Shown here: one piece after another, positions 1,902 to 26,681 of the stretch | Layout of the letters: every line of letters begins with the position of its first letter | Position numbering within the stretch: position 1 is the first letter of the stretch | DNA from: Bradyrhizobium sp. dw_78 | GTDB lineage: Bacteria > Pseudomonadota > Alphaproteobacteria > Rhizobiales > Xanthobacteraceae | Direction of reading: 5' to 3' | Assembly: GCF_018449525.1 (NCBI RefSeq) | Contig: NZ_JAAVUS010000011.1 | Coordinates: 1 to 64,000, forward strand | DNA length: 64,000 nucleotides | Program-made: the position numbers and the translations under genes | The notes under the pieces: generated by a model | What the model was told of the DNA's origin: nothing | The model's input: the letters and a program-made list of their open reading frames with translations, nothing else | Database searches by the model: none

Positions 1902-2447
1902 TCAGCCGATGGCAGCGACAGCGGGCTCTACGGCTTTGGTATGCACATCGACGCGCGAGGGATTGACGCTGCCGAGGATCGTCTTGGCTCGGGCAATTTC
2001 CGCCGCCGGGCCGTGTGCGAGCACCAGGAAGCTGTCGGTTTCCAGCGCGGTTTCATATTGGATCACGCTGTCCTTCGGCACGCCAATGCTGTAGAGCGCC
2101 GCGGCGAGGGCACTTATGCCGCCGACGATGACGGCATTCTCGATGGCAGCAATCACAATCGTGGCGATATAGCCGAGCACGACAACTTGCCCGACAACGG
2201 GAACGGTTATGAACAGCCCACCCAGGAACAAGCCCCAGAAGCCGCCCCAGAATGCACCGCGCGTGCCCCAGAATTTGATGCGATCGCCGGTATTGTAGAA
2301 TCCGACAACCTTTTCGTCGGTGTGGTAACCCTTGCCGACCACACTGAGGTTTTTCATTTCAAAGCCTGCGGCGGTCAGCTTCTTGATCGCCGTTTCAGCC
2401 GCGGGATGGTCGGTGAAGACGGCGATGACTGTGTCGTTATTTTCCAT
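1902..2447 (-). CDS. General-stress-protein-like membrane protein
   Basis: The 181-residue protein has a cytoplasmic N-terminal part (residues 1-55) of the type seen in YflT / general stress protein 17M-like proteins, starting M-E-N-N-D-T-V-I-A-V-F. A glycine-rich hydrophobic centre of two or three membrane spans follows (about 60-120), and then a ferredoxin-like C-terminal segment. The family is linked to stress responses but has no known reaction. The start at 2447 follows an AAGGAG site. Its upstream region holds the shared 12-mer described at 2587-2618, in the orientation that points to this gene. No partner gene is adjacent, so it is probably monocistronic. Confidence 0.75.
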   Translation of the reverse strand: MENNDTVIAVFTDHPAAETAIKKLTAAGFEMKNLSVVGKGYHTDEKVVGFYNTGDRIKFWGTRGAFWGGFWGLFLGGLFITVPVVGQVVVLGYIATIVIAAIENAVIVGGISALAAALYSIGVPKDSVIQYETALETDSFLVLAHGPAAEIARAKTILGSVNPSRVDVHTKAVEPAVAAIG

Positions 2448-2848
2448 CGGTATTCTCCTTTTGAGGGGTAAGCTGGGTCATCGCGCCGGCTGTCCGTATC
2501 GTTCTTGGGCGCATGCCAAAGGCGCAGCCTGAAGGCCGCGGATTCGGAGTTGATCTTTGCCCCAAGATTAGGTTGGAGGTCCCCTACCAAGATAGACTCG
2601 GAAACTACTCAGTCTTGGCTCACGCACCACGGCGACATCATGGAAATGGTAACGAGAGTTGGTGCTTCGGGAACCGCGCTGAACTCCATGAAGTCCGCGC
2701 TTCATCTCACCCGCTCGCGCCGGCCGCGCAACCCGGTCCAGCTTCGCCGAGGCGAGGGCTATCGGTCGGGCCCGTCACAAAAAGCGGGTTCATCTTTGAA
2801 CGACGGTCGAGGAGCATCTTCAACGCCGGTTGACGCATAGGATTGGCT
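2448..2848. other. Intergenic region upstream of the stress-protein gene
   Basis: No convincing gene is seen in this stretch. Open frames here (for example 2505-2840 on the plus strand) lack family resemblance and a ribosome site. Its only clear structure is the dyad with the shared 12-mer at 2587-2618. Confidence 0.5.
2587..2618 (-). promoter_or_regulatory. Shared 12-mer site A, inside a larger dyad
   Basis: The minus strand reads GTAGTTTCCGAG at 2608-2597. Around it lie outer arms CCAAGA and TCTTGG (2587-2592 and 2613-2618) and a weaker inner GTAG/CTAT pair. The site is about 150 bases upstream of the ATG at 2447 and points toward that gene. The identical 12-mer recurs upstream of three other transcription units in this window. 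Confidence 0.6.
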
Positions 2849-3126: not shown

Positions 3127-3594
3127 CTACGCAGCGACATGGCGACCTGGCTGCGCTACAGTCGTTTCCGGGGCAGTTGAGTTGATTGGGTGGGTCCAGT
3201 CAGCGGCGAGCGCCAGACGAGCCAACTCCGGTAGCGACTTCGAGCCGGTTCTTCGCATGATCGAGGCTCGATGATTTTCGACGGTACGTTGGCTGATCCC
3301 AAGATCCGCAGCGATGTTCTTGCTCGGATGACCGACAAGGACCAGCTTCATGATCTCATGCTCTCGAGGGGTCAAGCTCGCGAGACGGTTTTCGGCGGCG
3401 TGGTGTAATCCGAACATCATGGTGACCAGTTCCTCCCTTTCCCGGAGGACGGGGCATCCTGCACATGTCGCCGCATAACTGATCTGGTGCAAAACAACTG
3501 CGCCAGTTGCACCTTCAAACGTGATTTTGGAATGTGAAAGCGGGCCTGTCCAGCGTTCGTTCTGGACGTTGTCTTGCACTTTACAGGGGAACAT
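3127..3594 (-). CDS. FixJ-like LuxR-family regulator with CxxC pair (copy 1)
   Basis: The 155-residue protein ends in a LuxR/FixJ-type helix-turn-helix (about residues 75-135: L-T-P-R-E-H-E-I-M, then S-K-N-I-A-A-D-L-G-I-S, then R-T-V-E-N-H-R-A-S-I-M). The C-terminal part resembles the FixJ DNA-binding domain. There is no receiver domain. The N-terminal half is short and contains A-T-C-A-G-C-P, a CxxC pair that could bind metal or form a disulfide. A GGAG sits eight bases before the ATG at 3594, supporting this start. It is a clear paralog of the gene at 9432-9863. Target sites are not proven, but the shared GTAGTTTCCGAG boxes are candidates. Confidence 0.8.
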   Translation of the reverse strand: MFPCKVQDNVQNERWTGPLSHSKITFEGATGAVVLHQISYAATCAGCPVLREREELVTMMFGLHHAAENRLASLTPREHEIMKLVLVGHPSKNIAADLGISQRTVENHRASIMRRTGSKSLPELARLALAADWTHPINSTAPETTVAQPGRHVAA

Positions 3595-3743
3595 CGGCGC
3601 TACTCCAGCCGCGCTGGAGCGGCTCTGCGATAAGCCTGTGCGGTGAGGCTGAGTTCCCTAACAAGTTTGTTCGCCGAGGTTGGTTGCACCGGGCACGCGC
3701 AATGCAGCGATGCGTCGAAAGCCATGTTTTTCTCATTGGTTAA

Positions 3744-3771
3744 GGTCAATTTTGACCACGGTGTCGGTCAA
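3744..3771. promoter_or_regulatory. Three alternating GGTCAA half-sites upstream of regulator copy 1
   Basis: GGTCAATTTTGACC (3744-3757) is an inverted repeat of GGTCAA with a 2-nt spacer. A third GGTCAA follows at 3766-3771 and forms a second inverted pair with the middle half-site. The cluster lies 150-177 bases upstream of the regulator start at 3594. Part of it is shared with the upstream region of the paralog. The surrounding 3595-3919 stretch shows no gene. Confidence 0.45.
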
Positions 3772-3919
3772 GGAATGGGATAGCGTACAGTGGTTTCTTG
3801 TGCGCTATCGATATTCGTCAGATTGCCGCTTGAGATGATCACGGGTCGGGACGATCATCCGAGGTCATCCCCCAACCGCCTTTTCAACTTTTCAGGGACT
3901 GAGCGAGCCGGTTAATTGG

Positions 3920-4237
3920 CTAAACCTCATTTGCGAAGCTCAGCGATGCCTCGATGGCTTCCTGCCAAATATCATTGGTGGCCACGCCCTCATCCTCCAG
4001 TCTCTGCATAAGCGCGCCCACCGCGGCAGCAGAGGCATCTGCAAGTCGATCATTTCCGGAAGCCCGGGTGCGCATTGCGTTGACGAATGGCCGAATCGCC
4101 TCGACGGCTTCGGCAGATGGCAGGCTGCGAGCCCCGTGAAGGATATGAAGCATATCGCAGACCAAATGCGGCGGTGGCGTCTTGGGGACCGGATTCGCGT
4201 CGGTACGCAAGCCTTCTTCAATTGCTTTATGAGCCAT
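3920..4237 (-). CDS. Hypothetical protein, soluble and helical
   Basis: A 105-residue protein beginning M-A-H-K-A-I-E-E-G. It has no recognisable domain; a helical stretch rich in Ala and Glu fills residues 40-100. The start at 4237 is preferred over the ATG at 4246 because the GGAG at 4247-4250 sits nine bases from the former and directly against the latter. It ends about 200 bases downstream of the efflux operon start-to-end block on the same strand but is separated from it by a gene-free stretch. Unknown function. Confidence 0.5.
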   Translation of the reverse strand: MAHKAIEEGLRTDANPVPKTPPPHLVCDMLHILHGARSLPSAEAVEAIRPFVNAMRTRASGNDRLADASAAAVGALMQRLEDEGVATNDIWQEAIEASLSFANEV

Positions 4238-4443
4238 CGCCGTCATCTCCTTTGGTGGACGCTGATTTTGCAATCGTCGAGCGCGTCGGTTTTATCTCGC
4301 CGCCGAACCTGGGGCATTCATGCCGGTCGGCTGTTGCTGGCGGCCACATAAACGGGGCTTTCGCGCGTAAACATCCGAAGCGCTGTCCGGAGTGAACTGG
4401 TTGTCGCTTCAGATGTTCCAGTCCGCGCCGGTGCTGCGGCCCG

Positions 4444-7400
4444 CTACTCGACCTCCGGACTCCTCGACCGCAAACTCGCGATCCAATCACCCAGCCGGTC
4501 GAGATAGAGATAGATCACCGGCGTCGTGAACAATGTCAGCGCCTGACTGACAATCAGGCCTCCGACCATGGCGTAGCCGAGTGGCTGCCTGAGTTCCGAG
4601 CCGGTGCCCTGGCCGAGCATAAGAGGAACTCCGCCAAGCATTGCCGCCATCGTTGTCATCAGGATCGGCCGGAACCGCAGCAGCGCGGCGCGGCGGATGG
4701 CGTCCTTGGCCGACAAATGATCGTCCCGCTGCGCCACCATCGCGAAGTCGACCAGCAGGATGCCGTTCTTTTTGACGATGCCGATCAGCAGGATAATGCC
4801 AATCAGCGCGATCACGCTGAAATCGAAATGGAACAGCATCAGCGTCGCCAGCGCCCCGGCGCCTGCCGATGGCAGCGTCGACAAGATCGTTAGCGGGTGG
4901 ATATAGCTCTCATAGAGGATGCCGAGGATCAGATAGACGATCGCCAACGCGCCCACGATCAACAGCGGTATCGTCGAGAGTGATTGCTGGAACGCCTGTG
5001 CGTTGCCCTGAAAGCTAGTCGTGATCGTGACCGGGAGCTTCAGCCCACGCCTTGTGCCATCCACCGCGTCGGTCGCTTCGCCGAGTGATACGTTCGGAGC
5101 GAGGTTGAAACTGAGTGTGACGGCCGGGAACTGGCTCTGGTGGCTGATGGAGAGCGGCTGGACCGGTACCGTCGTCCATCGCGCGAATATCGAAAGTGGC
5201 ACCTCACTTCCCGTCGTGGGTGACTTCAGGTAGATTGTGCCGAGCGTGTCAACTTCGCCCTGCAGGGTCGGCAGCACCTCCATGATCACTTCATAGGTCG
5301 AAAGCTGGGTGAAGTACTGGGCGATTTGACGCTGGCCAAAGGCATCGTAGAGCGTGTCGTCGATCGTTTGAAGGGTCACGCCGTAGCGCGAAGCCTGGCT
5401 TCGATCGATCGTCGTCGTCAGTGTCGTGCCCTGTGTCTGTTGGTCGGATGCCACGTCCCGCAATTGTGACAAGCTCTGCAACGTCGCCAGCATCTTCGGC
5501 GCCCAAGCGTTCAGTTCGTCCAGATCGGGATCCTGCAGCGTGTACTGATACTGGGTGCGCGAAGCGCGTCCACCCACCGTCACATCCTGCGTGGCCTGCA
5601 AAAATAGCCGCGCACCCTGGACCGCGGCCAGGCCGGGTGCCAGCCGCGCGATGATCTGATCGGCGGTCGCCGTGCGCTGATCGCGCGGCTTCAACGTGAT
5701 AAACAGACGGCCGGTGTTGAGCGCGTTGCCGGTGCTGCCGATGGACATAGCGACATGCGCCACTGCAGTATCGTTCTGAACGACGGCGCCCAGCGCTTCC
5801 ATGCGCCGCATCATTTCAGCCGGGGCAACGTCCTGTCCTGCCTCGGCGACGCCGGTGATCAGTCCGGTATCCTGTTGCGGAAAGAAGCCTTTCGGAATGA
5901 TGACGAAAAGATAGACCGTCAAGGCGAGGGTTGTGAGGAAGACGAGCAGCGTCACGAATCGGAATTTAAGTACGCCGTCGAGTCCCTGCTCATAGAGTTT
6001 CAACAGGGCCTCGAAGGCTCGCTCGCTCCCCGCGTAAATGCGTCCATGCTTGGCCGCCTTGGACGAGGTCAGGAAGCGGGATGCCATCATGGGCGTCAAG
6101 GTCAGCGATACGATGGCTGACACGACGATCGTCATCGACAGCGTCGCGGCGAATTCGCGGAACAGCCGGCCGATGATGCCCCCCATCAGGAACAGCGGGA
6201 TCAGCACGGCGATCAGCGATATGCTGATCGAGACGATGGTGAAGGCGATCTCGCGCGACCCCTTCAGCGCGGCCGCGAATGGCTTCTCGCCCTTCTCGAT
6301 ATAGCGCGTGATGTTTTCCAACATCACGATGGCGTCGTCGACGACGAATCCGACCGAAATGGTGAGCGCCATGAGCGAGAGATTATCGAGACTATAGCCC
6401 GCGATCCACATCAGCGCGCATGCGCCAAGCAAGGCCAGCGGCACCGCGACGCTGGGGATGATCGTTGCCCAGAGGTTACGCAGGAATATGAAGATCACCA
6501 TGATCACCAGCGCGATGGTGAGCAACAGCGTGAACTGGACGTCCTGGATGGACGCGCGGATTGTCTGCGTGCGGTCGCTCAGCACGAAGATGCTGATGGC
6601 GGGCGGCATGGTCGCCTTCAGCCGCGGCAGAGCCGCCATGATGCTGTCGACGGTGGTGATGACATTGGCGCCCGGCTGCTGGTAGATGACAAGGAAGACG
6701 CCGCGCTTGCCGTCGGCCCAGGCGGCCTGTGTCGAATCCTGCGCCGCGGTGACAGCGTCACCGATGTCGCGCACACGCACCGACCCATTATCGCGATAAG
6801 CGACAATAACATCGTTCCAGGGCTCGGCCGTGATGAGTTGATCGTTGGTGTAAATGGTGTACGAGCGTTTATTGCCTTTGATCGCGCCTTTCGGACTATC
6901 GGTGGTCGCCGCGGAAAGCTGCGTGCGCACATCTTCGAGCGACAGGCCTTTCGCCACCAGCTTTGACGGGTCGAGCTGGATGCGGATCGCCGGCTTCTGC
7001 TGGCCTCCGACGGTGACCTGGGCCACGCCGGAAATCTGGCTGATCTGTTGGGCAAGCTTGGTCTCGATGTCGTCATCGACCTCGGTCAGCGGCAGGGTTT
7101 CCGAGGTCGCCGCGAGCAACAATATGGGCGAATCTGCGGGATTCACCTTGCGGTAGGTCGGTGGCGCCGGCAGGTCCTTCGGCAATTGCCCACCGGCGGC
7201 GTTAATCGCTGCCTGCACGTCGTTCGCAGCTCCGTCGATGTCACGGTCGAGGTCAAACTGAATTGTGATCGCAGTCGAGCCAAGCGTGCTTGTCGAGGTC
7301 ATCTGCGAGATACTTGGTATCTGGGTGAATTGGGTTTCCAGCGGTTGGGCCACAGCGGAGGCCATCGTGTCGGGGCTGGCGCCGGGCAGCGACGCCGACA

Positions 7401-7545
7401 CTTGAATGGTCGGGAAGTCGACCTGCGGCAAGGGCGCCACCGGCAATCTGGGATAGGCGACGATACCGACGAACAGGATACCGATCATCAGCAACGAGGT
7501 GGCGATCGGATGTCGGATGAATGGCTCGGAAATGCCGCCCGCCAC
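4444..7545 (-). CDS. RND-family multidrug efflux permease (MdtB/MdtC-like)
   Basis: The 1033-residue protein has full RND layout: a first membrane helix near residues 12-30, a large periplasmic porter loop, then a block of helices, repeated twice. Proton-relay residues are present: the adjacent Asp pair in V-V-D-D-A-I-V-M-L-E-N near residue 400, and the Lys in G-I-V-K-K-N-G-I late in the protein. The N-terminal wording (P-L-P-Q-V-D-F-P-T-I-Q-V) is that of MdtB/MdtC/HAE1 drug pumps rather than heavy-metal pumps. It follows its adaptor gene with a 2-base gap. Unlike MdtABC systems there is only one permease, so a homotrimer is expected. No outer-membrane factor gene is adjacent. Confidence 0.92.
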   Translation of the reverse strand: MAGGISEPFIRHPIATSLLMIGILFVGIVAYPRLPVAPLPQVDFPTIQVSASLPGASPDTMASAVAQPLETQFTQIPSISQMTSTSTLGSTAITIQFDLDRDIDGAANDVQAAINAAGGQLPKDLPAPPTYRKVNPADSPILLLAATSETLPLTEVDDDIETKLAQQISQISGVAQVTVGGQQKPAIRIQLDPSKLVAKGLSLEDVRTQLSAATTDSPKGAIKGNKRSYTIYTNDQLITAEPWNDVIVAYRDNGSVRVRDIGDAVTAAQDSTQAAWADGKRGVFLVIYQQPGANVITTVDSIMAALPRLKATMPPAISIFVLSDRTQTIRASIQDVQFTLLLTIALVIMVIFIFLRNLWATIIPSVAVPLALLGACALMWIAGYSLDNLSLMALTISVGFVVDDAIVMLENITRYIEKGEKPFAAALKGSREIAFTIVSISISLIAVLIPLFLMGGIIGRLFREFAATLSMTIVVSAIVSLTLTPMMASRFLTSSKAAKHGRIYAGSERAFEALLKLYEQGLDGVLKFRFVTLLVFLTTLALTVYLFVIIPKGFFPQQDTGLITGVAEAGQDVAPAEMMRRMEALGAVVQNDTAVAHVAMSIGSTGNALNTGRLFITLKPRDQRTATADQIIARLAPGLAAVQGARLFLQATQDVTVGGRASRTQYQYTLQDPDLDELNAWAPKMLATLQSLSQLRDVASDQQTQGTTLTTTIDRSQASRYGVTLQTIDDTLYDAFGQRQIAQYFTQLSTYEVIMEVLPTLQGEVDTLGTIYLKSPTTGSEVPLSIFARWTTVPVQPLSISHQSQFPAVTLSFNLAPNVSLGEATDAVDGTRRGLKLPVTITTSFQGNAQAFQQSLSTIPLLIVGALAIVYLILGILYESYIHPLTILSTLPSAGAGALATLMLFHFDFSVIALIGIILLIGIVKKNGILLVDFAMVAQRDDHLSAKDAIRRAALLRFRPILMTTMAAMLGGVPLMLGQGTGSELRQPLGYAMVGGLIVSQALTLFTTPVIYLYLDRLGDWIASLRSRSPEVE

Positions 7546-7547
7546 GA

Positions 7548-8744
7548 TCAGGGCGCCTTGGCTTGAGGGGTCGCCGTGGCATCGCCGGGTGGGGCTGACT
7601 GGACAACGGAGCCCTGAACCAGGCGGTATTGGCCCGCGGTCACCACGGTCTCGCCGGGCTGCAACCCCTGCAGGACAACGGCCGTTCCGGCATCATCCTC
7701 ACCGATCTTGATGGGGTGCATCTCGACTTTGGCGTCGGCGTTGACAACATAAGCGTAGAGCCCGTTAGGTCCGTGCTGAATTGCATCGTCGGAGACGACG
7801 GTCACCTGTTTCCGCGTCTCGACCAGCAGGCGCGTCGAAACTGACAGGCCGGGCCATAATGCATCGTCCTTGTTCTCGAACGTCGCCTTCATGCTGATGG
7901 TGCCGCTCGCTTGATCGACCAAATTATTGACAATGGCGAGATGGCCCTGGGACAGGATTTTTGAGCCATCCGAACTACGGACGATCACGGGCACGGCGCC
8001 GGCGGCGAAAGCGATATTGATCCGCGGGATGTCCTGTTCGGGAGCTGTGAAAACCACCGAGATCGGTTGCAGCTTTGCAATCGTCACGATCCCCGTGGCG
8101 CTGGCCGCATGAACGATGTTGCCGAGATCGACGAGACGGAAGCTGGTCTTCCCCGTGATAGGGGATCGGATCGTGGTGTAGCCGACTTGAGTCTGGGCGG
8201 TATCGATCAAAGCCTGATCGCCATCGATCTGGGCGGTCAACTGATCGACCGTAGATTGCTGCGTGTCGAGCTGTTGCCGTGTGGCGTATTCTTGCTTGGC
8301 CAGAGTGGCATATCGCTGCAGGTTGAGCTGGGCGTCTTTCAGACTGGCCAGATCTTGTACCTTTTTCGCGAGGGCTTGATCCAGGACCGCCTGGTAAGGT
8401 CGCGGATCGATCTCGACGAGAATGTCGCCCTGCTTGACCATCTGGCCTTGCTTGAATGCGACCTTGGTGATTTCACCATCGACGCGGCTGCTTACGGTGA
8501 CGGTCTCGTAGGATTCGGCGGTGCCAAGCCCGTTGAGGTAGACAGCGAAATCGGCTGTCCGTGTTTTGGCGGTGCTGACGGGAACAGGTGCAGCCGCCTC
8601 ACTTGCGCTTTGGTCTTTGGCTCCCGTTCCCGTGACGTTCCCATAGTAATGACGCCAGCCGAGGTAGCCTGCCAGCGCGATCGCCGCTACAGGAACCAGA
8701 AGCTTCCAGCTGCCTCGGAGACTTAATGTGTAAGGCGAGGACAA
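7548..8744 (-). CDS. RND efflux periplasmic adaptor (MdtA/AcrA-like)
   Basis: The 398-residue protein has one N-terminal membrane anchor (residues 12-28). A lipoyl/barrel-sandwich segment follows (V-S-S-R-V-D-G-E-I near 85), then a long alpha-hairpin (about 110-180), the second lipoyl half (T-I-R-S-P-I-T-G near 190) and beta-barrel domains. It bridges the inner-membrane pump and an outer-membrane channel. It is the first gene of a two-gene operon with the permease. A copy of the shared 12-mer lies 69 bases upstream of its ATG, so it may be controlled with the hydrogenase operon. Confidence 0.9.
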   Translation of the reverse strand: MSSPYTLSLRGSWKLLVPVAAIALAGYLGWRHYYGNVTGTGAKDQSASEAAAPVPVSTAKTRTADFAVYLNGLGTAESYETVTVSSRVDGEITKVAFKQGQMVKQGDILVEIDPRPYQAVLDQALAKKVQDLASLKDAQLNLQRYATLAKQEYATRQQLDTQQSTVDQLTAQIDGDQALIDTAQTQVGYTTIRSPITGKTSFRLVDLGNIVHAASATGIVTIAKLQPISVVFTAPEQDIPRINIAFAAGAVPVIVRSSDGSKILSQGHLAIVNNLVDQASGTISMKATFENKDDALWPGLSVSTRLLVETRKQVTVVSDDAIQHGPNGLYAYVVNADAKVEMHPIKIGEDDAGTAVVLQGLQPGETVVTAGQYRLVQGSVVQSAPPGDATATPQAKAP

Positions 8745-8812
8745 AAGCGCGTTCTCTAGAAACTCCGGGAATTAGGAGTTCAGGATAGCGGTCGATGATC
8801 GGGGCGAGTACC

Positions 8813-8824
8813 CTCGGAAACTAC
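8813..8824 (-). promoter_or_regulatory. Shared 12-mer site B, upstream of efflux operon
   Basis: The minus strand reads GTAGTTTCCGAG here, followed by G-GTAC, so a GTAG-N9-GTAC partial dyad. It lies 69 bases from the adaptor ATG at 8744 and points toward it. The rest of 8745-9431 holds no gene that I can support. Confidence 0.6.
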
Positions 8825-9311
8825 GCAGGCTGACTCGGCGAATGTTCATCAGCTTGCTGAATTCTGCCATGCGGCTGCAGGGCCCGACGAGCAAACTCCA
8901 CTCGTGGCGGGATAGCAACCGTAGCGAATGAAATCAGTCTCGAGACAGGCCTGCAGGACGGAATACTGCCGACGTCGCGCCGTGTTCAGCATCGTCCTGA
9001 CCGGCTGGATTTCTAGGGGCATAGGAACGTAGCTTCCTCAGCGGTTCTTCCATGCGGAAGCCCGCGAGAGTATCAGACTACGCGATGTCTTACGAGACTG
9101 ACTTCTCGCTCCTCGCAAGAATTCCATCGTTACCGCCGCCGACGTGCTGCGTGCGATAGGTTCCCAGAAACCTTGCCGCTAGATGGCATCGATCGGATTA
9201 GATAAAGCTGTTATAAAATTGCTCCACCGAAAGTTGCTCTAGATCCAGCGGCCGAGGAGAATCAACCCGGTAGCATTGTTGTGATATCTCATGTTCAGCG
9301 AAGCTTGTGAG

Positions 9312-9322
9312 CAAAATTGACC
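9312..9322 (+). promoter_or_regulatory. CAAAATTGACC word upstream of regulator copy 2
   Basis: CAAAATTGACC occurs here about 110 bases before the ATG at 9432. The same 11-mer, in the same orientation relative to the gene, is part of the GGTCAA cluster upstream of regulator copy 1 (3744-3757, minus strand). It may be a common operator of the two paralogs. Confidence 0.35.
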
Positions 9323-9431
9323 AGACTCGCTGACTTGGCGGAGCAGTATGGCCTACACATTGTTGCCAGGCGTGCGCAATGGCCGGGTCAACCTGCTGGC
9401 GTTGCGCGTTGGATGCGAGAGCGGAGTTATT

Positions 9432-9863
9432 ATGATGCGCCACTACCATATCCGCGACCACGAAGATTTCGCCGACGAGCGCATGAGACCTGTCTCGGGC
9501 TCAATAGCCGGAATTGAAGATGCGATTAGTGAAGCCATGCTTCACACCGGCTACCCGGCAAAATGCGGCGGGTGTCATGTGCTTCAAAAAAGGGACGATC
9601 TGCTTCTTAAACTGCTCGGGGTGCATGAAGATGCAGAGAAGCGTCTCTCAGGTCTTACCCATCGACAGTATCAGGTCATGAGGTTGGTTCTCGCCGGCGT
9701 TCTGAGCAAGAATATCGCAGTGGATCTTTGCATCAGCCGGCGCACCGTTGAAAATCATCGTGCCTCGATCATGAAAAGAACAGGTGCGAAGTCGCTTCCG
9801 GAATTAGCGCGCTTGGCGCTCGCCGCCGACTGGATAAATCCAATCAAAGTGACGGCTCAATGA
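9432..9863 (+). CDS. FixJ-like LuxR-family regulator with CxxC pair (copy 2)
   Basis: From ATG 9432 the product is 143 residues, beginning M-M-R-H-Y-H-I-R-D-H. An N-terminal half of unknown fold contains A-K-C-G-G-C-H, a CxxC pair at the position matching copy 1. The C-terminal half is a FixJ/LuxR helix-turn-helix with R-T-V-E-N-H-R-A-S-I-M and the ending L-P-E-L-A-R-L-A-L-A-A-D-W that copy 1 also has. No phosphorylation domain is present, so sensing would be through the Cys-containing part. A longer in-frame start at 9348 exists but has no counterpart in copy 1. It lies between the efflux operon and the hox operon. Confidence 0.78.
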   Translation: MMRHYHIRDHEDFADERMRPVSGSIAGIEDAISEAMLHTGYPAKCGGCHVLQKRDDLLLKLLGVHEDAEKRLSGLTHRQYQVMRLVLAGVLSKNIAVDLCISRRTVENHRASIMKRTGAKSLPELARLALAADWINPIKVTAQ

Positions 9864-10171
9864 CGCTGCCATCCTTAAATTGCCCAGTGCTGGATAAGGG
9901 GTTTTGCTCCGAGTTATCCCTAGCATTCGTGCCGAGCGGCAGGAAACGTCGCCGTTTTGTAAGGCATTGTCGTACGCCGAACCAAATCCGTTGGTCACGG
10001 GGCTCGCGGTGCCCGCTCTGCTGACGTAGCAACCAATCGCGCGCCCCGGGTTGATTGCAAGACCGGCTGAACACCTTCGGGGGCTTCTGGAACCGAGGTA
10101 CGCTGATCGCTCGAAATACATTGCTCGCTCGTATGCTTGAAATCTCGCCGCGCAATCTTCGGCATGGCTAG

Positions 10172-10183
10172 GTAGTTTCCGAG
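10172..10183 (+). promoter_or_regulatory. Shared 12-mer site C, upstream of hox operon
   Basis: GTAGTTTCCGAG is followed by C-CTACC, giving a clean dyad GGTAG-N9-CTACC (10171-10189). It lies 76 bases before the hoxF ATG at 10260, a distance fitting an activator just upstream of a promoter. Otherwise 9864-10232 contains no supported gene. Confidence 0.65.
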
Positions 10184-10259
10184 CCTACCGCGTGCGATCG
10201 TTAGACGGCTATCTTCTGAAGTCGAAAAACCATTGCGGCTAGATCACGGCGGTTGCGGC

Positions 10260-12098
10260 ATGACGACGTTGGATGGGACCGAGGCATCTGTATGCAGCAA
10301 CGCCCTTACGATAGGGGCCATCGTCGATGAGTTTAAATCCGACCGTAATCGTCTGTTGGATATTGTTGGGCGGGTGCAGCACCGCTTCGGTCATGTCAGT
10401 CAGGAAGCGATAAGTTCAATCTCAAGTAGACTTGGCATGCATCCCGTCGAAGTCATTGAGATGGTGTCCTTTTATGCATTCTTCGACCAGACGCCGCGAG
10501 GGCGCAACCGGATCCGTCTCTCGAAGACGCCAATCTCGATGATGAATGGCGCCAGGGAAGTCGCAGAGGCGTTTGGGCAATCGCTGGGCATTGCTATGGG
10601 GGAGACGTCGCTTGATGGCATGTTCACGCTGGAATGGACGAATGATATTGGCATGGCTGATCAGGAACCGGCGGCCTTGGTCAACGGGATGATATTGACT
10701 TCGCTTACGCCGCTGGATGTGCCTGGGATCATTGCTGCTCTCCGACATGAGGAGGACGGCCTTGGTCTGTCGTCCTATCCGCCCACAGCGGCGCAGGCAT
10801 TGAAGTTGCCGAAATCCAACGTGCGCCCAAGCCTCATTCAAGCCGGGCCGCTGCTGACGAGGCCGGTGGTTCGGGCACGCGGACTAAAGGCTGCCCTGGC
10901 CATGACGCCTGAGAAAGTCATCGAAGAGATCACGAGTTCCAAACTCCGGGGGCGCGGCGGTGCCGGATTTCCAACCGGCATGAAGTGGCGCCTTACTCGA
11001 AAGTCGGCAGGCAAGGAGCATTACATTCTTTGCAATGCCGATGAGGGGGAGCCAGGCACCTTTAAGGATCGAATGTTGCTCGCCGAGTTTCCGGATCTGG
11101 TTTTTGACGGACTGACCATCGCCGGCTACGCTCTCGGTTCGCAGCATGGAATCCTATATCTCCGGGGCGAGTACGCCTATCTGTGGGAGACACTTCAGGA
11201 AACGTTGAGGACTCGCCGCAGCCTCGGGCTGCTCGGCGCGAATATCTGTGGGCGGCAAGGATTTGATTTCGATATTCGAATTCAACTCGGCGCTGGTGCT
11301 TACATATGTGGTGAAGAATCCTCGCTGATTGAATCGCTTGAGGGCAAGCGTGGCTCGCCACGCGATCGACCGCCGTTCCCGACGGAGCGCGGTTACTTAC
11401 AACAGCCGACCGCCATCGACAATGTCGAGACCCTGATCTGCGCCGCCCGCATCTTGGAGAAAGGCGTGGCTTGGTTCACGAGTTATGGCACGAAGGAGTC
11501 GGCCGGTACGAAGCTGATCAGCGTCTCGGGCGATTGCGCTCGACCCGGCGTCTATGAAGTGCCGTTCGGCGTCACCGTCAGCGAGCTTCTAGACTTGGTC
11601 GGCGGAGCGGACGCTATTTACGTCCAGGTGAGCGGTCCTTCGGGCCATTCGGTCGCACCGAAGGATTTCGGCCGGAGCATCGCCTATGAGGATCTATCGA
11701 CCGGAGGCTCGACGATGGTCTTCGGTCCGCAGCGCGACGTGCTCGATGTCGCGATGCAATTCGCCGAGTTTTTTGTTGAGGAATCCTGCGGATGGTGTAC
11801 GCCCTGCCGCGTCGGCACCACACTGCTCAAGCAAGGCATGGAGAAAGTGCTCGCTGGTCGTGCGACGCTTTCGGATCTCTCGGAGATGGAAGCGCTCGGC
11901 CAAACCGTCGTGCGGATGAGCCGGTGCGGCCTCGGCCAGTCGGCCCCCAACCCCATCCTGACCACAATGCGAAATTTCCCCGAACTCTACGAGGCCCGAC
12001 TTGCGGCCGTCCCGTTCACGCCGCTCGTGACTTTGCATGACGCCTTGCGCGAAGCCGTGGCGGTCCAGGGCCGCGAGCCACTCAGTGAGGAAACGTGA
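10260..12098 (+). CDS. hoxF: NAD-reducing hydrogenase diaphorase subunit HoxF
   Basis: HoxF passes electrons between the hydrogenase module and NAD+. From ATG 10260 it is 612 residues, the usual size of a NuoE-NuoF fusion. The NuoE-like part (1-170) lacks the four Cys that hold [2Fe-2S] in NuoE; the sites read L-S-K-T-P-I-S and N-D-I-G-M. The NuoF-like part has the FMN glycine loop GRGGAGFPTG (231-240), the N-A-D-E-G-E-P-G-T-F-K-D-R NADH/FMN segment (259-271), and [4Fe-4S] ligands C510, C513, C516 and C556. A TTG start at 10233 is possible. It is the first gene of the operon and follows site C. Confidence 0.95.
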   Translation: MTTLDGTEASVCSNALTIGAIVDEFKSDRNRLLDIVGRVQHRFGHVSQEAISSISSRLGMHPVEVIEMVSFYAFFDQTPRGRNRIRLSKTPISMMNGAREVAEAFGQSLGIAMGETSLDGMFTLEWTNDIGMADQEPAALVNGMILTSLTPLDVPGIIAALRHEEDGLGLSSYPPTAAQALKLPKSNVRPSLIQAGPLLTRPVVRARGLKAALAMTPEKVIEEITSSKLRGRGGAGFPTGMKWRLTRKSAGKEHYILCNADEGEPGTFKDRMLLAEFPDLVFDGLTIAGYALGSQHGILYLRGEYAYLWETLQETLRTRRSLGLLGANICGRQGFDFDIRIQLGAGAYICGEESSLIESLEGKRGSPRDRPPFPTERGYLQQPTAIDNVETLICAARILEKGVAWFTSYGTKESAGTKLISVSGDCARPGVYEVPFGVTVSELLDLVGGADAIYVQVSGPSGHSVAPKDFGRSIAYEDLSTGGSTMVFGPQRDVLDVAMQFAEFFVEESCGWCTPCRVGTTLLKQGMEKVLAGRATLSDLSEMEALGQTVVRMSRCGLGQSAPNPILTTMRNFPELYEARLAAVPFTPLVTLHDALREAVAVQGREPLSEET

Positions 12099-12099
12099 A

Positions 12100-12822
12100 A
12101 TGGTTGCCGCCAGCTTTAAATTCAACATCGACGGGATCGAGGTCGAGGCGACTGAGGGCCAATCGGTGATCGAAGCCTGCGACGAGGCCGGTATCTATAT
12201 TCCGCGCTTGTGCCATCATCCGGAACTGCCTCCCTCCGGAAACTGCCGCGTCTGTACCTGCAAGATCAATGGCCGCCACAGTGCCGCCTGCGTGACCCCG
12301 GCCGCGCATGGCATGGTGATCGAGAACGATACGCCGCAGCTCACCAGCGACCGGCGCGCCGTTATCGAAATGCTGTTCGTGGAGGGCAATCATCCTTGCC
12401 CCTATTGCGTGGCGAGTGGCGACTGCGAATTACAGGCGCTCGGGTACCGGCTGGGCATGGTTGCGCCCACTCAACCATATCAGTGGCCTGAGCGGAAGAT
12501 CGATGCCACGCATCCTGACATCTATCTCGACCACGACCGCTGCATTCTCTGTTCGCGCTGCATTCGCGCGTCGCGGATGGAGGATGGCAAGACGGTTTTC
12601 GGCTTTGAAGGACGCGGGATCGCGATGCGGCTGAATGTCGATGCGCAGGGAGGCCTTGGGGAAACCCAGATGGCCGCGATTGACAAGGCGGCGAGTGTCT
12701 GTCCGGTCGCTTGTATCGTCATCAAACGTCACAACTACCAGGTTCCAAACGGTAGCCGTCGCTTCGACAAGACGCCAATCGGCAGCGATATCGAGGCGAA
12801 ACGAACAAGGCGTCAGTCATGA
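12100..12822 (+). CDS. hoxU: NAD-reducing hydrogenase iron-sulfur subunit HoxU
   Basis: HoxU wires electrons between HoxY and HoxF in the cytoplasmic enzyme. The 240-residue protein holds a plant-type [2Fe-2S] site (C38, C49, C52, C64), a NuoG-type H98-x-C100-x2-C103-x5-C109 site, and further ferredoxin-like ligands C148, C151, C154, C201 and C205. The start at 12100 lies one base after the hoxF stop and follows GTGAGGAA. The last bases overlap the hoxY start (ATGA), so translation is probably coupled. All cluster ligands I expect are present. Confidence 0.95.
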   Translation: MVAASFKFNIDGIEVEATEGQSVIEACDEAGIYIPRLCHHPELPPSGNCRVCTCKINGRHSAACVTPAAHGMVIENDTPQLTSDRRAVIEMLFVEGNHPCPYCVASGDCELQALGYRLGMVAPTQPYQWPERKIDATHPDIYLDHDRCILCSRCIRASRMEDGKTVFGFEGRGIAMRLNVDAQGGLGETQMAAIDKAASVCPVACIVIKRHNYQVPNGSRRFDKTPIGSDIEAKRTRRQS

Positions 12823-13409
12823 CAGCGACGCTCGACGCAGGTTCAACGACAGGCCCGGCAGCGTCACGCTCCAAGCCGAGTCTCGCGACCTGCGCCCTGA
12901 CAGGCTGTTTTGGATGCCACATGTCGCTTCTCGATATCGACGAGCGAATCCTCGAATTGGTCGACCTCGTCGATCTGGACGTGTCACCGTTCGATGACAA
13001 GAAAGCGTTCGATCGACAGGTTGATGTCGGCTTCGTCGAAGGCGGCTGCTCGAATGAGTACAATGTCAAGGAGCTCAGGGAATTCCGCAAGCATTGCCGT
13101 ATCCTGATCTCGGTCGGCGCATGCGCGATCAATGGCGGCGTACCTGCGATGCGCAACACGATCGGTCTTCGGGAGTGCCTGGAGGCGGTCTATCTCAACG
13201 GGCCGTCTCTCGAAGGCGCCGGCATGATTCCGAACGACGAGGATCTGCCGCTGCTCCTCGACCGTGTCTACCCATCGCATGAGATCGTGAAGATCGACTA
13301 TTTCCTGCCAGGTTGCCCGCCTTCCGGCGACGCCATGTGGGAGGGGCTCAAGGCCTTGCTCACCGGCAAGGCACCGACTTTGCCCTACTTGCTGTGCAAG
13401 TACGAATGA
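12819..13409 (+). CDS. hoxY: [NiFe] hydrogenase small subunit HoxY
   Basis: The 196-residue small subunit carries the proximal [4Fe-4S] cluster next to the NiFe site. Ligands visible are C30 and C33 (T-G-C-F-G-C-H), C102 (G-A-C-A-I-N-G-G) and C166 (L-P-G-C-P-P-S-G). There is no twin-arginine signal, fitting a soluble group 3 enzyme rather than a membrane uptake hydrogenase. The start overlaps the hoxU stop by four bases. An extra 20-residue Ala/Ser/Thr-rich N-terminal tail precedes the conserved core. Confidence 0.95.
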   Translation: MTATLDAGSTTGPAASRSKPSLATCALTGCFGCHMSLLDIDERILELVDLVDLDVSPFDDKKAFDRQVDVGFVEGGCSNEYNVKELREFRKHCRILISVGACAINGGVPAMRNTIGLRECLEAVYLNGPSLEGAGMIPNDEDLPLLLDRVYPSHEIVKIDYFLPGCPPSGDAMWEGLKALLTGKAPTLPYLLCKYE

Positions 13410-13434
13410 TGCGCGCCATACAGGGACGTACACC

Positions 13435-14916
13435 ATGAGCGATGTTCAGGTCAGTCAGCCACAGGGTAACCCGCTGAAGGGCCGCCTGGGACCGCGTAAA
13501 ATCGTCATCGATCCGGTGACCCGCGTTGAAGGCCACGGCAAGGTTACCATCAAGCTCAACGAGGCCGGCGAGGTCGAACAGGCACGGTTTCATATCGTGG
13601 AGTTCCGCGGGTTCGAGAGATTCATCTGTGGGCGCATGTATTGGGAGGTTCCCGTCATCGTTCAGCGCCTCTGCGGTATTTGTCCGGTGAGCCATCATCT
13701 TGGCGCCGGCAAAGCAATGGATGTCATCGCCGGAGTAGACCAGTTGACGCCGACGGCAGAGAAGATGCGGAGGCTGATGCATTACGGCCAGGTGCTGCAG
13801 TCGAACGCCCTGAATTTTTTTCATCTGGCCTCGCCTGATCTTCTGCTCGGCTTCGAAGCGCCGGTCGCGCAACGCAACATAATTGGCGTGATCGAAGCCT
13901 TTCCGCAAGTCGGCAAGTGGGCGATCTTTATCCGCAAATACGGTCAGCAAGTGATCGCCGCGACCGGCGGCAGGCGAATCCATCCAAGACTGTGCATCCC
14001 AGGCGGAGTCAACCAGAACCTGACCGTGGAGAACCGGGATGCGCTCAGGAAGGATATCGATCAAATCATCAATTGGTGTTGCGAGGCTCTGGAGCTTCAC
14101 AAATCCTTTGTTCATTCGCATGAGACGCTGCACGAGACATTTGCAAGCTTTCCGTCGAGCTACATGAGCCTCGTCGGAGCAGATGGCGGAATGGATCTAT
14201 ACGATGGCACGCTCCGCGCCATCGATGCGGACGGCGAGTCGATCTTCGAGGGCGTCCGCCCGGTCGACTACCGCGACTACCTCACCGAGGAAGTCCGCTC
14301 CTGGAGCTATATGAAGTTTCCACACATTCGTTCGCTCGGGCGCGAGGACGGCTGGTATCGGGTCGGTCCCCTGGCACAACTGAACTGCTGTGCCTTCATC
14401 GGCACACCTATCGCCGAGATCGCACGCAAGGAGTTCATGGCGCTTGGGCATGGCGGGCTGGTCCATGCGACGCTTGCCTATCACTGGGCGCGGCTGATCT
14501 GCATGATCCACTGCGCCGAGACGATCAAGAAACTTCTATTCGACGATGATCTTCAAGGGACCGATTTGGTCGCGAGCGGCCAGCGCCGGTCGGAAGGCGT
14601 TGCGATCATCGAAGCGCCACGCGGCACGTTGCTTCATCACTACGCGGTGGACCATAACGACCAGGTGACCAGCGCCAACCTCATCGTTTCGACAACCAAC
14701 AATAACGAGGCGATGAATCGGTCCGTGACCAAGGTCGCCATCGATTATCTTGCCGGCCACGAGATCACCGAAGGTCTGCTGAACCACATCGAGGTCGCGA
14801 TTCGGGCCTATGACCCGTGTCTCTCATGCGCCACACACGCGCTTGGCCAGATGCCGCTCGTCGTCACGCTCGAGGATGCCGAAGGTTCGGTGATTGCGAC
14901 CCGGATAAAAGAATGA
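13435..14916 (+). CDS. hoxH: [NiFe] hydrogenase large subunit HoxH precursor
   Basis: HoxH houses the NiFe(CN)2CO centre. In its 493 residues the N-terminal ligand motif is R78-L-C80-G-I-C83-P-V-S-H87 and the C-terminal one D460-P-C462-L-S-C465-A-T-H468, so all four nickel cysteines are intact. Twenty-five residues follow H468 and should be cut off by HoxW after nickel insertion. The motif wording (R-x-C-G-I-C-P-x-S-H-H with D-P-C-x-x-C-x-x-H) suits group 3d bidirectional NAD-linked enzymes. It starts 25 bases after hoxY and its stop overlaps hoxW (ATGA). Confidence 0.96.
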   Translation: MSDVQVSQPQGNPLKGRLGPRKIVIDPVTRVEGHGKVTIKLNEAGEVEQARFHIVEFRGFERFICGRMYWEVPVIVQRLCGICPVSHHLGAGKAMDVIAGVDQLTPTAEKMRRLMHYGQVLQSNALNFFHLASPDLLLGFEAPVAQRNIIGVIEAFPQVGKWAIFIRKYGQQVIAATGGRRIHPRLCIPGGVNQNLTVENRDALRKDIDQIINWCCEALELHKSFVHSHETLHETFASFPSSYMSLVGADGGMDLYDGTLRAIDADGESIFEGVRPVDYRDYLTEEVRSWSYMKFPHIRSLGREDGWYRVGPLAQLNCCAFIGTPIAEIARKEFMALGHGGLVHATLAYHWARLICMIHCAETIKKLLFDDDLQGTDLVASGQRRSEGVAIIEAPRGTLLHHYAVDHNDQVTSANLIVSTTNNNEAMNRSVTKVAIDYLAGHEITEGLLNHIEVAIRAYDPCLSCATHALGQMPLVVTLEDAEGSVIATRIKE

Positions 14917-15407
14917 GTTCGGTCGCAACAAAGATGGCGCCTGCAAATGGACAGGCCCGCATCCTGGTTCTGGGCTACGGCAATCCGGGGCGCCAGGACG
15001 ACGGCCTGGGTCCGGCGATGGTCGCCGAAATCGAGAGGCTGGCATGGCGCAATGTCACCGCTCATGACAATTACCAGCTCAACATCGAAGATGCGATCGA
15101 TGTCGCGGAGCATGACATCGTGTGGTTCGTGGACGCTGCGAGGGCCGGGCCAGCGCCATACTCCATGAGCGATCTTTCTCCTGCATCAGGCATCGAGTTC
15201 ACCAGTCACCTGGTCCGGCCGGAGGTTATCCTGGCGATAGCCCGGCAATATTACGGCGGGTCACCGCGGGCATTTCTGGTCGGCATACGAGGCTATGAAT
15301 TCGAGTTCCTGGAGGAACTCACGATGGAAGCGAAGCATAATCTGCGTGCCGCGCTAGCGATGCTTGGTGAACGCATACGCTCTTGTCAGACCGGAGAGGC
15401 GCCATGA
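14913..15407 (+). CDS. hoxW: HoxH C-terminal maturation endopeptidase HoxW
   Basis: The 164-residue protein belongs to the HyaD/HycI/HoxW endopeptidase family, which removes the large-subunit tail once nickel is in place. The start of the conserved core reads I-L-V-L-G-Y-G-N-P-G-R-Q-D-D-G-L-G; its Asp is one of the metal-sensing acids of this family. A second acid follows in V-D-A-A-R-A, and a C-terminal V-G-I-R-G-Y-E-F-E matches soluble-hydrogenase proteases. The start at 14913 is inside the hoxH stop. Its likely substrate is the HoxH of the same operon. Confidence 0.92.
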   Translation: MSSVATKMAPANGQARILVLGYGNPGRQDDGLGPAMVAEIERLAWRNVTAHDNYQLNIEDAIDVAEHDIVWFVDAARAGPAPYSMSDLSPASGIEFTSHLVRPEVILAIARQYYGGSPRAFLVGIRGYEFEFLEELTMEAKHNLRAALAMLGERIRSCQTGEAP

Positions 15408-15829
15408 ATATCGGTTTTGGCAATTCAAGGAAGACCATACTCCTGATCGATGAAGACGCTCATGCGCGGGCAACGCTACGCATCGCCCTTGAAAATGCCG
15501 GCTTCACGGTTGGCGAAGCGGCGAATGGACGGGAGGGTGAGCGCACGGCGCGGCGGATCAAGCCGGATGTCATTCTGGCCGAGCTGATGATCGAACCCGC
15601 CGATGCTGGTGGAACGGTTTCGGAGCGGCTCAGGGCGACCGGCAGCACGACACCGTTCTACATCGTCAGCACGGCCGGCGAGGCGCTTGTTGGATCCGTC
15701 GGGCTGCACGAACTCGGCGTCTCCGGCGTATTCCTCAAGCCTATCGATCCCGCGGTCATGATCCAGGCGCTCAAGACGCGCCTTGATGTCACCGAACGTG
15801 CGGCTCGCGGGGAGCGAGGGGATGCATGA
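15404..15829 (+). CDS. Stand-alone receiver-like protein inside hox operon, phospho-Asp replaced by Glu
   Basis: The 141-residue protein has the fold signature of a response-regulator receiver: T-I-L-L-I-D-E-D (acid pocket, residues 11-18), S-T at 89-90 and F-L-K-P-I-D (Lys112). The strand that should end in the phosphorylated Asp reads V-I-L-A-E-L-M-I, with Glu at position 60. Glu often mimics the phosphorylated state, so it may be constitutively active or purely a docking module. There is no output domain. ATGA overlap with hoxW and an 8-base overlap with hypA embed it firmly in the operon. A role in assembly or in signalling is open; I know no established name. Confidence 0.85.
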   Translation: MNIGFGNSRKTILLIDEDAHARATLRIALENAGFTVGEAANGREGERTARRIKPDVILAELMIEPADAGGTVSERLRATGSTTPFYIVSTAGEALVGSVGLHELGVSGVFLKPIDPAVMIQALKTRLDVTERAARGERGDA

Positions 15830-16163
15830 AGTGTCCCTTATCGAAGGCATTGTCGATCTGGTCGCAGCAGAGGCGCGAAAGCAGGCATTCTCGCAGGTAC
15901 GGGTAATCCGTCTGAGGCTCGGCGCCCTTGGGCATGCCGAACCGGAGGCGCTGCGGTTCTGCTTCGACGCGGTTACGAACGGTACCATCGCCGATGGTGC
16001 GCGGCTGGAGATCGAGATGGTGCCTGGGCGGGGCTGGTGTTTCGGTTGCGAAAGTACCGCATTGCTTGATGAACGGTTCGCGGCATGTCCGCACTGCGGA
16101 AAAGCGCCGCTTCAAATCTTGGCTGGCGACGAGTTGCAGTTGGCGGAATTGGAGGTCGATTGA
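15822..16163 (+). CDS. hypA: Hydrogenase nickel-insertion protein HypA
   Basis: HypA delivers nickel with HypB to the immature large subunit. The 113-residue protein starts M-H-E-V-S-L, keeping the N-terminal H2/E3 nickel site. Its structural zinc site is C73-x2-C76 and C89-x2-C92. The start at 15822 is fixed by this M-H-E motif, although an in-frame ATG exists upstream at 15783. It overlaps the receiver-like gene by eight bases and touches hypB (TGATG). Confidence 0.93.
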
Positions 16164-21790: not shown

Positions 21791-22008
21791 CAACAAGATT
21801 GCTGTGCAAACCCGAGCCGAGCGCGGCTCATCCGGTTAGACGCGACGTGTCCCCCTCAACGGCACGCCCGCCGTGACGCCCAGCGCGCAATGACATCAAT
21901 GTGATGTTGCAAGATTAGCTGCACCAGAGCACCGCTCATCCGATTCGACCGGCCAACGGCGTGGTTTCGGGGGCGTTCTGTTTCTCGATTCTGAGTTGGC
22001 GGGCGTGA

Positions 22009-22020
22009 GTAGTTTCCGAG
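22009..22020 (+). promoter_or_regulatory. Shared 12-mer site D, upstream of aldehyde dehydrogenase operon
   Basis: GTAGTTTCCGAG is followed by T-CTACC, so GTAG-N9-CTAC is again a dyad. It lies 88 bases before the ATG at 22109. The remainder of 21791-22108 has no gene; a weak 6-bp hairpin follows hypE at 21814-21829 without a T tract. Confidence 0.65.
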
Positions 22021-22108
22021 TCTACCCCCGCAGTTCTATTGATGGCTATGGTTCAGCAACTACCCGGCGACCTTTGGTCGCCTTACGACATCGAAAGAGA
22101 ACCAGGAC

Positions 22109-23491: not shown

Positions 23492-23498
23492 AGCACTT

Positions 23499-23528
23499 CG
23501 ATCGACGCCATTGATCTGGCGTCGATCG
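23499..23528 (+). terminator. Strong hairpin between aldehyde dehydrogenase and pntAA
   Basis: CGATCGACGCCA (23499-23510) and its exact complement (23517-23528) form a 12-bp perfect stem with the 6-nt loop TTGATC. It starts eight bases after the stop codon. No T run follows, so it may be an attenuator or an mRNA-stability element rather than a full intrinsic terminator. Confidence 0.55.
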
Positions 23529-23624
23529 CGCGGCGCAGACTGCGTCATCGCGTAGGCCGTGGTCGGCGTCCAGCGCTTTCCGTCAGTCCGTTGGTTCGAA
23601 TAGCGTCAAGAGCCGGAGTCACTC

Positions 23625-24797: not shown

Positions 24798-24818
24798 GTG
24801 CGAGGAGGAGATAGCGCA

Positions 24819-25130
24819 ATGGACTTTTCAATCGAGATCACCGGCTTTGTGGCTTTGTATATCTTCATGCTGGCTGCCTTTGCCGGTTGGGTCATCATCG
24901 GCCATGTCCCGGCAATCCTGCATACGCCTCTGATGTCCGGATCGAATTTTGTGCATGGCATCGTGGTCGTCGGCGGCATGTTCGCACTTCTCAACGCCAG
25001 CACGGTTCAGGAGCAGGCAATCGGCTTTTTCGCTGTGCTGCTTGGCGCCGGCAATGCCGCGGGCGGGTATGCCGTGACCCATCGTATGCTTGCCATGTTC
25101 CAGACAAGCGGCCACGCCGACAAACGATAA
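24819..25130 (+). CDS. pntAB: Proton-translocating transhydrogenase subunit alpha-2
   Basis: The 103-residue protein is the small membrane part of domain II, with three or four hydrophobic helices (about 9-30, 38-60 and 65-88). The start at ATG 24819 follows GGAGGAG; a GTG at 24798 is in frame but lies before that site. It sits between pntAA and pntB, the standard order, and completes the proton channel with the PntB helices. Confidence 0.92.
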   Translation: MDFSIEITGFVALYIFMLAAFAGWVIIGHVPAILHTPLMSGSNFVHGIVVVGGMFALLNASTVQEQAIGFFAVLLGAGNAAGGYAVTHRMLAMFQTSGHADKR

Positions 25131-25175
25131 AGAGCAACTCATGCGAAGCCGAGTTCAAAATGGCGCGTTGAGGGA

Positions 25176-26630: not shown

Positions 26631-26681
26631 GCGGTCGTTGAAGGATGTCGACTGATTCAACTCGAAAGCAGGAGCTACCAA

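Follow-up and report, generated by a model that had tools for sequence, protein, structure and literature searches.

The window examined here, meaning the whole 64,000-nucleotide (nt) stretch of Bradyrhizobium sp. dw_78 (contig NZ_JAAVUS010000011.1, positions 1 to 64,000), carries two short regulatory genes, q1 and q2, together with four copies of a putative operator, each facing genes that the two products are predicted to control. Both products end in a helix-turn-helix (HTH) domain of the FixJ type, preceded by a segment with a CxxC cysteine pair.

The q1 and q2 regulators

3127-3594, minus strand: q1, 155 amino acids (aa), with a flexible N-terminal end, CxxC at residues 44-47, a coil helix at 48-72 and a GerE/LuxR-type HTH at about 73-132
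9432-9863, plus strand: q2, 143 aa, with CxxC at 45-48 and a GerE/LuxR-type HTH at about 74-133

The mechanically defined open reading frame (ORF) of q2 starts at 9348, and 9432 was taken as the gene start. An earlier note, made from the sequence alone, had described the two products as paralogs with a common DNA-binding end, devoid of a receiver domain and bearing CxxC at the same place, all of which was borne out. The proteins, encoded on opposite strands, aligned over 140 aa with 53% identity (E 1e-47), and the alignment included TVENHRASIM and LPELARLALAADW, common to both. The Pfam search placed GerE (PF00196) above its cut-off in q1 (5.2e-17) and q2 (2.3e-15); searched up to E 1, neither protein matched Response_reg. 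The cysteine pair occupied the same alignment columns, as CAGC in q1 and CGGC in q2. The case made in that note had also hung on cysteine conservation in orthologs, and comparison with the sole full-length q1 ortholog, 80-81% identical and found in genome G764 among 391 family genomes (own included), revealed CAEC in the same columns. Across these three sequences (TCAGCP in q1, KCGGCH in q2, KCAECQ in the ortholog) both cysteines were kept and the residues between and around them varied; the identity of the N-domains of q1 and q2 was 33%, the pair being retained nonetheless.

The best solved-structure match of the HTH was a 79-residue FixJ chain (1x3u, E 7.6e-18), and 8a5r and 3p7n were also among the matches. 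Two NCBIfam models were not reached, namely the FixJ equivalog NF006900 (60.7 and 58.4 bits against a cut-off of 255) and the curated PedR model, matched weakly (38.4 and 39.1 bits against 120). In the AlphaFold2 model (24 rows, mean predicted local distance difference test score 79.7), which was confident from about residue 51 and not at the front, a helix at 30-45 was followed by CxxC at a break and by a helix at 48-72 running into the HTH. Two suggestions of the earlier note fared less well. The separate N-domain fold that it had envisaged was rejected, as no globular domain appeared in this model and a profile of the three N-domains gave no convincing match among solved structures (a single hit, E 0.04). 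A heme-type sensor was likewise not favoured, and c-type heme was rejected, because the CXXCH signature exists only in q2 (CGGCH) and not in q1 (CAGCP) or the ortholog (CAECQ).

Operator sites in the window

The earlier note suggested that both regulators could read the same operator and placed them among genes with a 12-mer that it did not spell out; GTAGTTTCCGAG, the sole four-copy 12-mer in the window, was taken as the one meant. The 6.04 Mb genome as a whole has four copies of this 12-mer, all in one 20-kb stretch of the window, and its first 11 letters were found at the same four places only, the reversed 11-mer occurring twice. GTAGTTTCCGA also has four copies in the 6.04 Mb, every one in the window. 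The four sites are intergenic and each is oriented toward an operon. The extended site reads TRNGTA(G/T)TTTCCGANNCT, and near q1 and q2 the TRNGTAKTTTCCGANNCT pattern has three exact window sites and one with one departure. Allowing up to two mismatches, the plain 12-mer gave 7 window matches against a shuffle mean of 3.2, which was not significant; the signal lies in the exact and extended forms.

2594-2611, minus strand: operator TGAGTAGTTTCCGAGTCT, preceding the YflT-like gene
2565-2570, minus strand: predicted -10 TAATCT, 38 nt from the operator core start
1902-2447, minus strand: YflT-like stress protein gene (PF11181), predicted target; its G764 homolog is also preceded by the operator
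8810-8827, minus strand: operator TGCGTAGTTTCCGAGGGT, which departs from the pattern once, preceding the RND membrane-fusion/pump operon (8744-4444)
8782-8787, minus strand: predicted -10 TATCCT, 37 nt from the operator core start
4444-8744, minus strand: RND efflux operon, predicted target, with ORFs for a membrane-fusion protein (7548-8744) and a pump (4444-7545)
10169-10186, plus strand: operator TAGGTAGTTTCCGAGCCT, preceding the hox hydrogenase operon
10210-10215, plus strand: predicted -10 TATCTT, 38 nt from the operator core start
10233-16163, plus strand: ORFs of a hox NAD-linked [NiFe]-hydrogenase and the first maturation genes, predicted target
22006-22023, plus strand: operator TGAGTAGTTTCCGAGTCT, preceding the aldehyde dehydrogenase/pnt operon (from 22109)
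22047-22052, plus strand: predicted -10 TATGGT, 38 nt from the operator core start
22109-27773, plus strand: aldehyde dehydrogenase (PF00171), pnt-like genes and alcohol dehydrogenase (PF08240/PF00107), predicted target

The RND pump and membrane-fusion family names, the hox gene names at 10233-16163 and the pnt names within 22109-27773 are those that we take to apply from the sequence, and the genes at 22109-27773 were assumed to form one operon from their order and strand. No match to FixK/FNR, sigma-54 or GTAMSTAG-type FixJ patterns, in what we take to be their usual forms, was found upstream of these genes.

Distribution of the operator in other genomes

The HTH clade to which q1 and q2 belong was represented by 80 loci (0.98 Mb), in which GTAGTTTCCG had 74 copies distributed over 47 loci, compared with 4 copies of the reversed pattern and with a mean of 1.5 and a maximum of 11 for 60 shuffled patterns. 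Of the 80 loci, 46 had the 18-mer form and none had its reverse. Part of these counts is not independent, since some loci come from near-identical bins. A set of 114 sites was drawn from the window, from G764, G867 and G709, and from 79 of the 80 loci, locus L042 being omitted as the same contig as G867. In this set, columns outside the seed were also fixed, with T at -3 in 109 sites, a purine at -2 in 112, C at +13 in 102 and T at +14 in 111.

Within the genus, GAGTAGTTTCCGA was found in 9 of 265 genomes: G764 has six copies, G867 has three, the own genome has two, and G709, G840, G861, G868, G875 and G745 have one each. In G867 and G709 a clade HTH lies 4-5 kb from a site, and the G709 match fits the 18-letter site. 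The remaining five genomes have HTH matches of at most 51% identity, and their single matches misfit it.

The association was also tested by a case-control comparison of 80 genomes of the same family. The 12 clade-positive genomes (11 from the search of the 391 family genomes, plus G867) all contained TRNGTAKTTTCCGANNCT, in 1-9 copies, compared with 1 of the 68 clade-negative ones, drawn from 73 other family genomes whose best HTH match was weaker than E 1e-16; the reversed control gave one match, and the Fisher p was 2e-13, ignoring kinship. Together with the four sites unique in the genome, this comparison strongly supported the proposal of the earlier note that both proteins share an operator and are candidate regulators of the genes bearing the 12-mer. 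That q1 and q2 read this operator is thus well supported by comparative evidence.

In the genome of G764 the 9-letter core has 25 copies, compared with 65 for its reverse; nine of the 25 lie between 3,384,774 and 3,443,204, around the q1 ortholog, in an island with homologs of YflT, pntA-like and aldehyde dehydrogenase genes. Downstream genes were surveyed mechanically, with no gene finder, as ORFs of 100 aa or more whose start is no farther than 350 nt away, and 74 of 89 extended sites had one. The downstream families were mixed, and among the best 25 of 61 (n = 74) were MCRA (5), Response_reg (5), BON (4), zinc alcohol dehydrogenase (4) and YflT (4), followed by Aldedh (3), MFS (3), KaiC (2), Usp (2) and HlyD (2). 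The aldehyde dehydrogenases 3′ of sites in two loci (L044 and L070) were 83% and 82% identical to that of the window. The regulon elsewhere looks like a stress and low-oxygen set.

Promoter geometry and control of q1 and q2

A second signal was revealed by aligning 105 non-redundant sites on the operator: TA stood at +37 in 34 sites and at +38 in 37, making 71 in all, whereas the other 48 offsets from 15 to 64 had between 0 and 8 each, and T was in excess at +42 (52) and +43 (45). In the window, TAnnnT was found at +37 or +38 in four of four sites, where about 1% per site would be expected by chance. This signal resembles a -10 hexamer, the operator taking roughly the position of a -35 box, and from this fixed spacing in the compared sites class-II-like activation is to be expected of the regulators.

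Upstream of q1 and q2 themselves lies another element:

3744-3759, minus strand: GTGGTCAAAATTGACC, inverted repeat GGTCAA-AA-TTGACC, upstream of q1
9307-9322, plus strand: GTGAGCAAAATTGACC, upstream of q2

The common 16-nt form, GTGnnCAAAATTGACC, is about 110-150 nt ahead of the two genes and has its only exact window matches there; a GGTCAAAATTGACC-like inverted repeat also precedes the G764 ortholog. Since q1 and q2 lack an operator of their own but share this element, they may be controlled together by something else.

Origin and rarity of the CxxC form

Most of the closest HTHs were the C-terminal ends of long open frames, many of about 1,470 aa. The Pfam architecture of these hybrids rests on three scanned proteins, of which L047 carries CheB, CheR, PAS, HisKA, HATPase, receiver and GerE domains, and L042 and L068 carry PAS, HisKA, HATPase, receiver and GerE; a kinase and a receiver in the same protein were therefore present in the scanned hybrids and not in q1 or q2. 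None of 79 open frames longer than 560 aa had CxxC in its last 190 residues. Both q1 and q2 have the TVENHR(A/S)-type HTH of this clade, with HTH identities to it of up to 83% and 76%, respectively. In a tree of 66 HTH columns, from which the G764 ortholog was dropped as nearly identical to q1, the two were sisters (99/78) inside the hybrid clade and were joined with two hybrids of other families (97/80, starred). The clade occurs in many Alphaproteobacteria and some Pseudomonas and is apparently uncharacterised.

In the 6.04 Mb genome, q1 and q2 were the only proteins found of this HTH type. The other matches covered the HTH only, at 51%, 38% and 32% identity (best E 1.7e-12), the first being a FixJ-like HTH protein at C1:1156256, with q1 and q2 lying on C3. 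No second clade HTH was found in G764, the next best having 47% identity.

The CxxC form is rare. The three-row N-domain profile matched three of the 265 genus genomes, namely the own genome, G764 and G723, the last match (E 1.3e-4) being judged spurious, as it holds a stop and spans the end of an ABC-transporter frame and the start of a hydrolase frame. Among 397 genomes of the order, only the own genome matched, and in a class sample of 385 genomes none of the matches listed outside the own genome started before residue 22 of 143. Three plasmid records covered at least 80% of q1, with Agrobacterium at 33% among the matches listed. The ratio of nonsynonymous to synonymous substitution rates (dN/dS) between q1 and its G764 ortholog, by our own Nei-Gojobori count, was ~0.33 before CxxC, ~0.14 in CxxC plus coil and ~0.05 in the HTH (~0.17 for the whole protein). 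The q1-type protein appears to be under constraint, the cysteine and coil segment more so than the front end.

Several further clade members were observed. A Porphyrobacter metagenome-assembled genome carries a receiver-less clade HTH (L074, 2254-2586) with three cysteines ahead of the HTH (TCACRLGGAC) and operators about 4.8 kb off, a possible second input swap of the cysteine type. Three receiver-less members (L010 from G262, L037 and L086) have coil-like N-terminal ends with no CxxC; operators lie within 0.6 kb of L010, and none was found in the locus DNA examined for L037 and L086. Clade HTHs were also present under the labels Actinomycetota, Gemmatimonadota and Acidobacteriota (L080, L083, L084, L099), which would reflect lateral transfer or mis-binning, and three short clade frames (L043, L071, L079) look truncated.

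Proposed mechanism and alternative explanations

It is proposed, with a probability of roughly 0.6, that q1 and q2 are class-II-like activators in which a CxxC-headed coil replaced the receiver and kinase at an inherited operator. Both would derive from the C-terminal HTH of the CheB-CheR-PAS-kinase-receiver-HTH clade, the receiver and kinase having been lost and a helix-CxxC-coil segment having taken the place of the receiver ahead of the HTH. They would bind TRNGTA(G/T)TTTCCGANNCT at the -35 position and recruit RNA polymerase to the TAnnnT -10, 37-38 nt from the core start, switching on four operons (the YflT-like gene, the RND pump, hox, and the aldehyde dehydrogenase/pnt/alcohol dehydrogenase genes); binding by q1 and q2 themselves and activation are what we infer. 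In a symmetric dimer the two CxxC pairs would lie side by side where the coil begins, and there a disulfide, a metal (zinc) or an Fe-S cluster could set dimerisation, and hence DNA binding, in place of receiver phosphorylation, the pair presumably acting as a redox or metal switch. If so, hydrogenase, pyridine nucleotide transhydrogenase and fermentation genes would answer directly to the thiol redox state, with no kinase. The more general proposal, that a phosphorelay regulator became a direct cytosolic redox or metal sensor through a CxxC coil of about 70 residues with its operators kept, is offered tentatively, at slightly less than even odds. Such a swap may have been repeated in the clade, as suggested by the receiver-less coil forms L010, L037 and L086 and the cysteine-rich L074.

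Several observations weigh against this proposal. The CxxC form is carried by three sequences only, so that the conservation of its cysteines rests on one ortholog and one paralog, and AlphaFold2 modelled the cysteine-bearing segment with low confidence (block means 58-68). The tree is limited by its 66 columns and an unsettled bootstrap. As for the operator, the window scan revealed none at the promoter of q1 or q2, the site at 8810 lacks the CT half, 33 of the 80 clade loci had no GTAGTTTCCG in the locus DNA examined and 24 had neither GTAGTTTCCG nor GTATTTTCCGA. One clade-negative genome (G431, 79% complete and of the same genus as the clade-positive G385) has a site. Finally, no hox or RND homolog was found in the 39 kb read around the G764 ortholog, and the target set is therefore only partly shared.

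The alternative that survives best, though rather unlikely, is that q1 and q2 read the operator and sense nothing, being constitutive HTH activators whose CxxC would be a structural clasp (a permanent zinc site) holding the dimer, with control exerted on their transcription through the GGTCAAAATTGACC element. Truncated HTH domains of the FixJ/NarL type can bind DNA without a receiver, the inverted repeat upstream of q1 and q2 has only two exact places in the window, and in the AlphaFold2 model CxxC heads a coil. Nothing direct stands against this explanation, and cysteines kept amid varying residues fit either a clasp or a switch.

It is distinctly improbable that FixJ, or some other ordinary regulator of the FixJ/NarL type, reads the operators, with q1 and q2 acting elsewhere or competing. 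The own genome does encode the FixJ-like protein at C1:1156256 (51%), and the GTAGTTTCCC class of a FixJ study (PMC4999443) has nine letters in common with the site. However, all 68 clade-negative genomes have ordinary HTH matches (E<=1e-12) and 67 of them have no operator, and all four sites are beside q1 and q2 on C3, whereas the FixJ-like gene is on C1. Hardly credible is decay of former hybrid regulators, for although q1 and q2 lack every upstream domain of the scanned hybrids and some short clade frames look truncated (L043, L071, L079), the whole-protein dN/dS of ~0.17 and the N-domain and cysteine pair kept between the paralogs argue otherwise.

Other features of the window

15383-15829, plus strand: lone receiver (PF00072) within the hox/hyp run, perhaps a pseudo-receiver, since by eye Glu (ILAELM) seems to replace Asp at the phospho-acceptor position
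3920-4273, minus strand: small gene with no Pfam match; it shares 74% identity over 103 aa with a neighbour of the G764 q1 ortholog and appears to travel with the regulator
about 56728-57023 and 61178-61473: several common 12-mers at a constant offset of 4450 nt, probably a direct repeat or duplication

Comparison with known systems

One close resemblance is to FixJ, which provided the best solved match of the HTH (1x3u) and one of whose classes from systematic evolution of ligands by exponential enrichment (SELEX) shares the operator core GTAGTTTCC, as described in PMC4999443. That class, GTAGTTTCCC, equals the operator core except for the last letter, and the core is therefore an old FixJ-family code. 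Unlike FixJ, q1 and q2 have no receiver and carry a CxxC-headed coil instead, and their site continues with GANNCT. PedR of Synechocystis is another small LuxR-type HTH regulator controlled by cysteine, but in PedR it is a single Cys80 that forms an intermolecular disulfide, with another DNA motif (PMC13421787), whereas the CxxC of q1 and q2 lies N-terminal to the HTH.

Among the papers listed in searches of the open-access literature, with subscription papers outside the scope, none describes this operator with this clade or receiver-less CxxC members, and no system matching a CxxC regulator devoid of a receiver or a CheB-CheR-LuxR fusion emerged. The structures 8a5r and 3p7n belong to EL222, a LOV-HTH protein that we take to be a one-component regulator with another sensor in the receiver's place before this type of HTH; it would differ by its LOV photosensor domain and the absence of a CxxC segment.

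The CheB-CheR-PAS-kinase-receiver-HTH proteins (~1,470 aa) and the shorter kinase-receiver-HTH forms share with q1 and q2 the HTH clade and the operator, and differ in their input: PAS, HisKA, HATPase and receiver domains were present in all three that were scanned, with CheB and CheR as well in one, whereas q1 and q2 carry CxxC. The operator and its -10 code predict the regulon of an apparently uncharacterised clade, and within one HTH clade with a common operator, a large CheB-CheR-kinase chain and a short CxxC segment would serve as alternative inputs, a pair on which the replacement of input domains at a fixed regulon can be tested directly.

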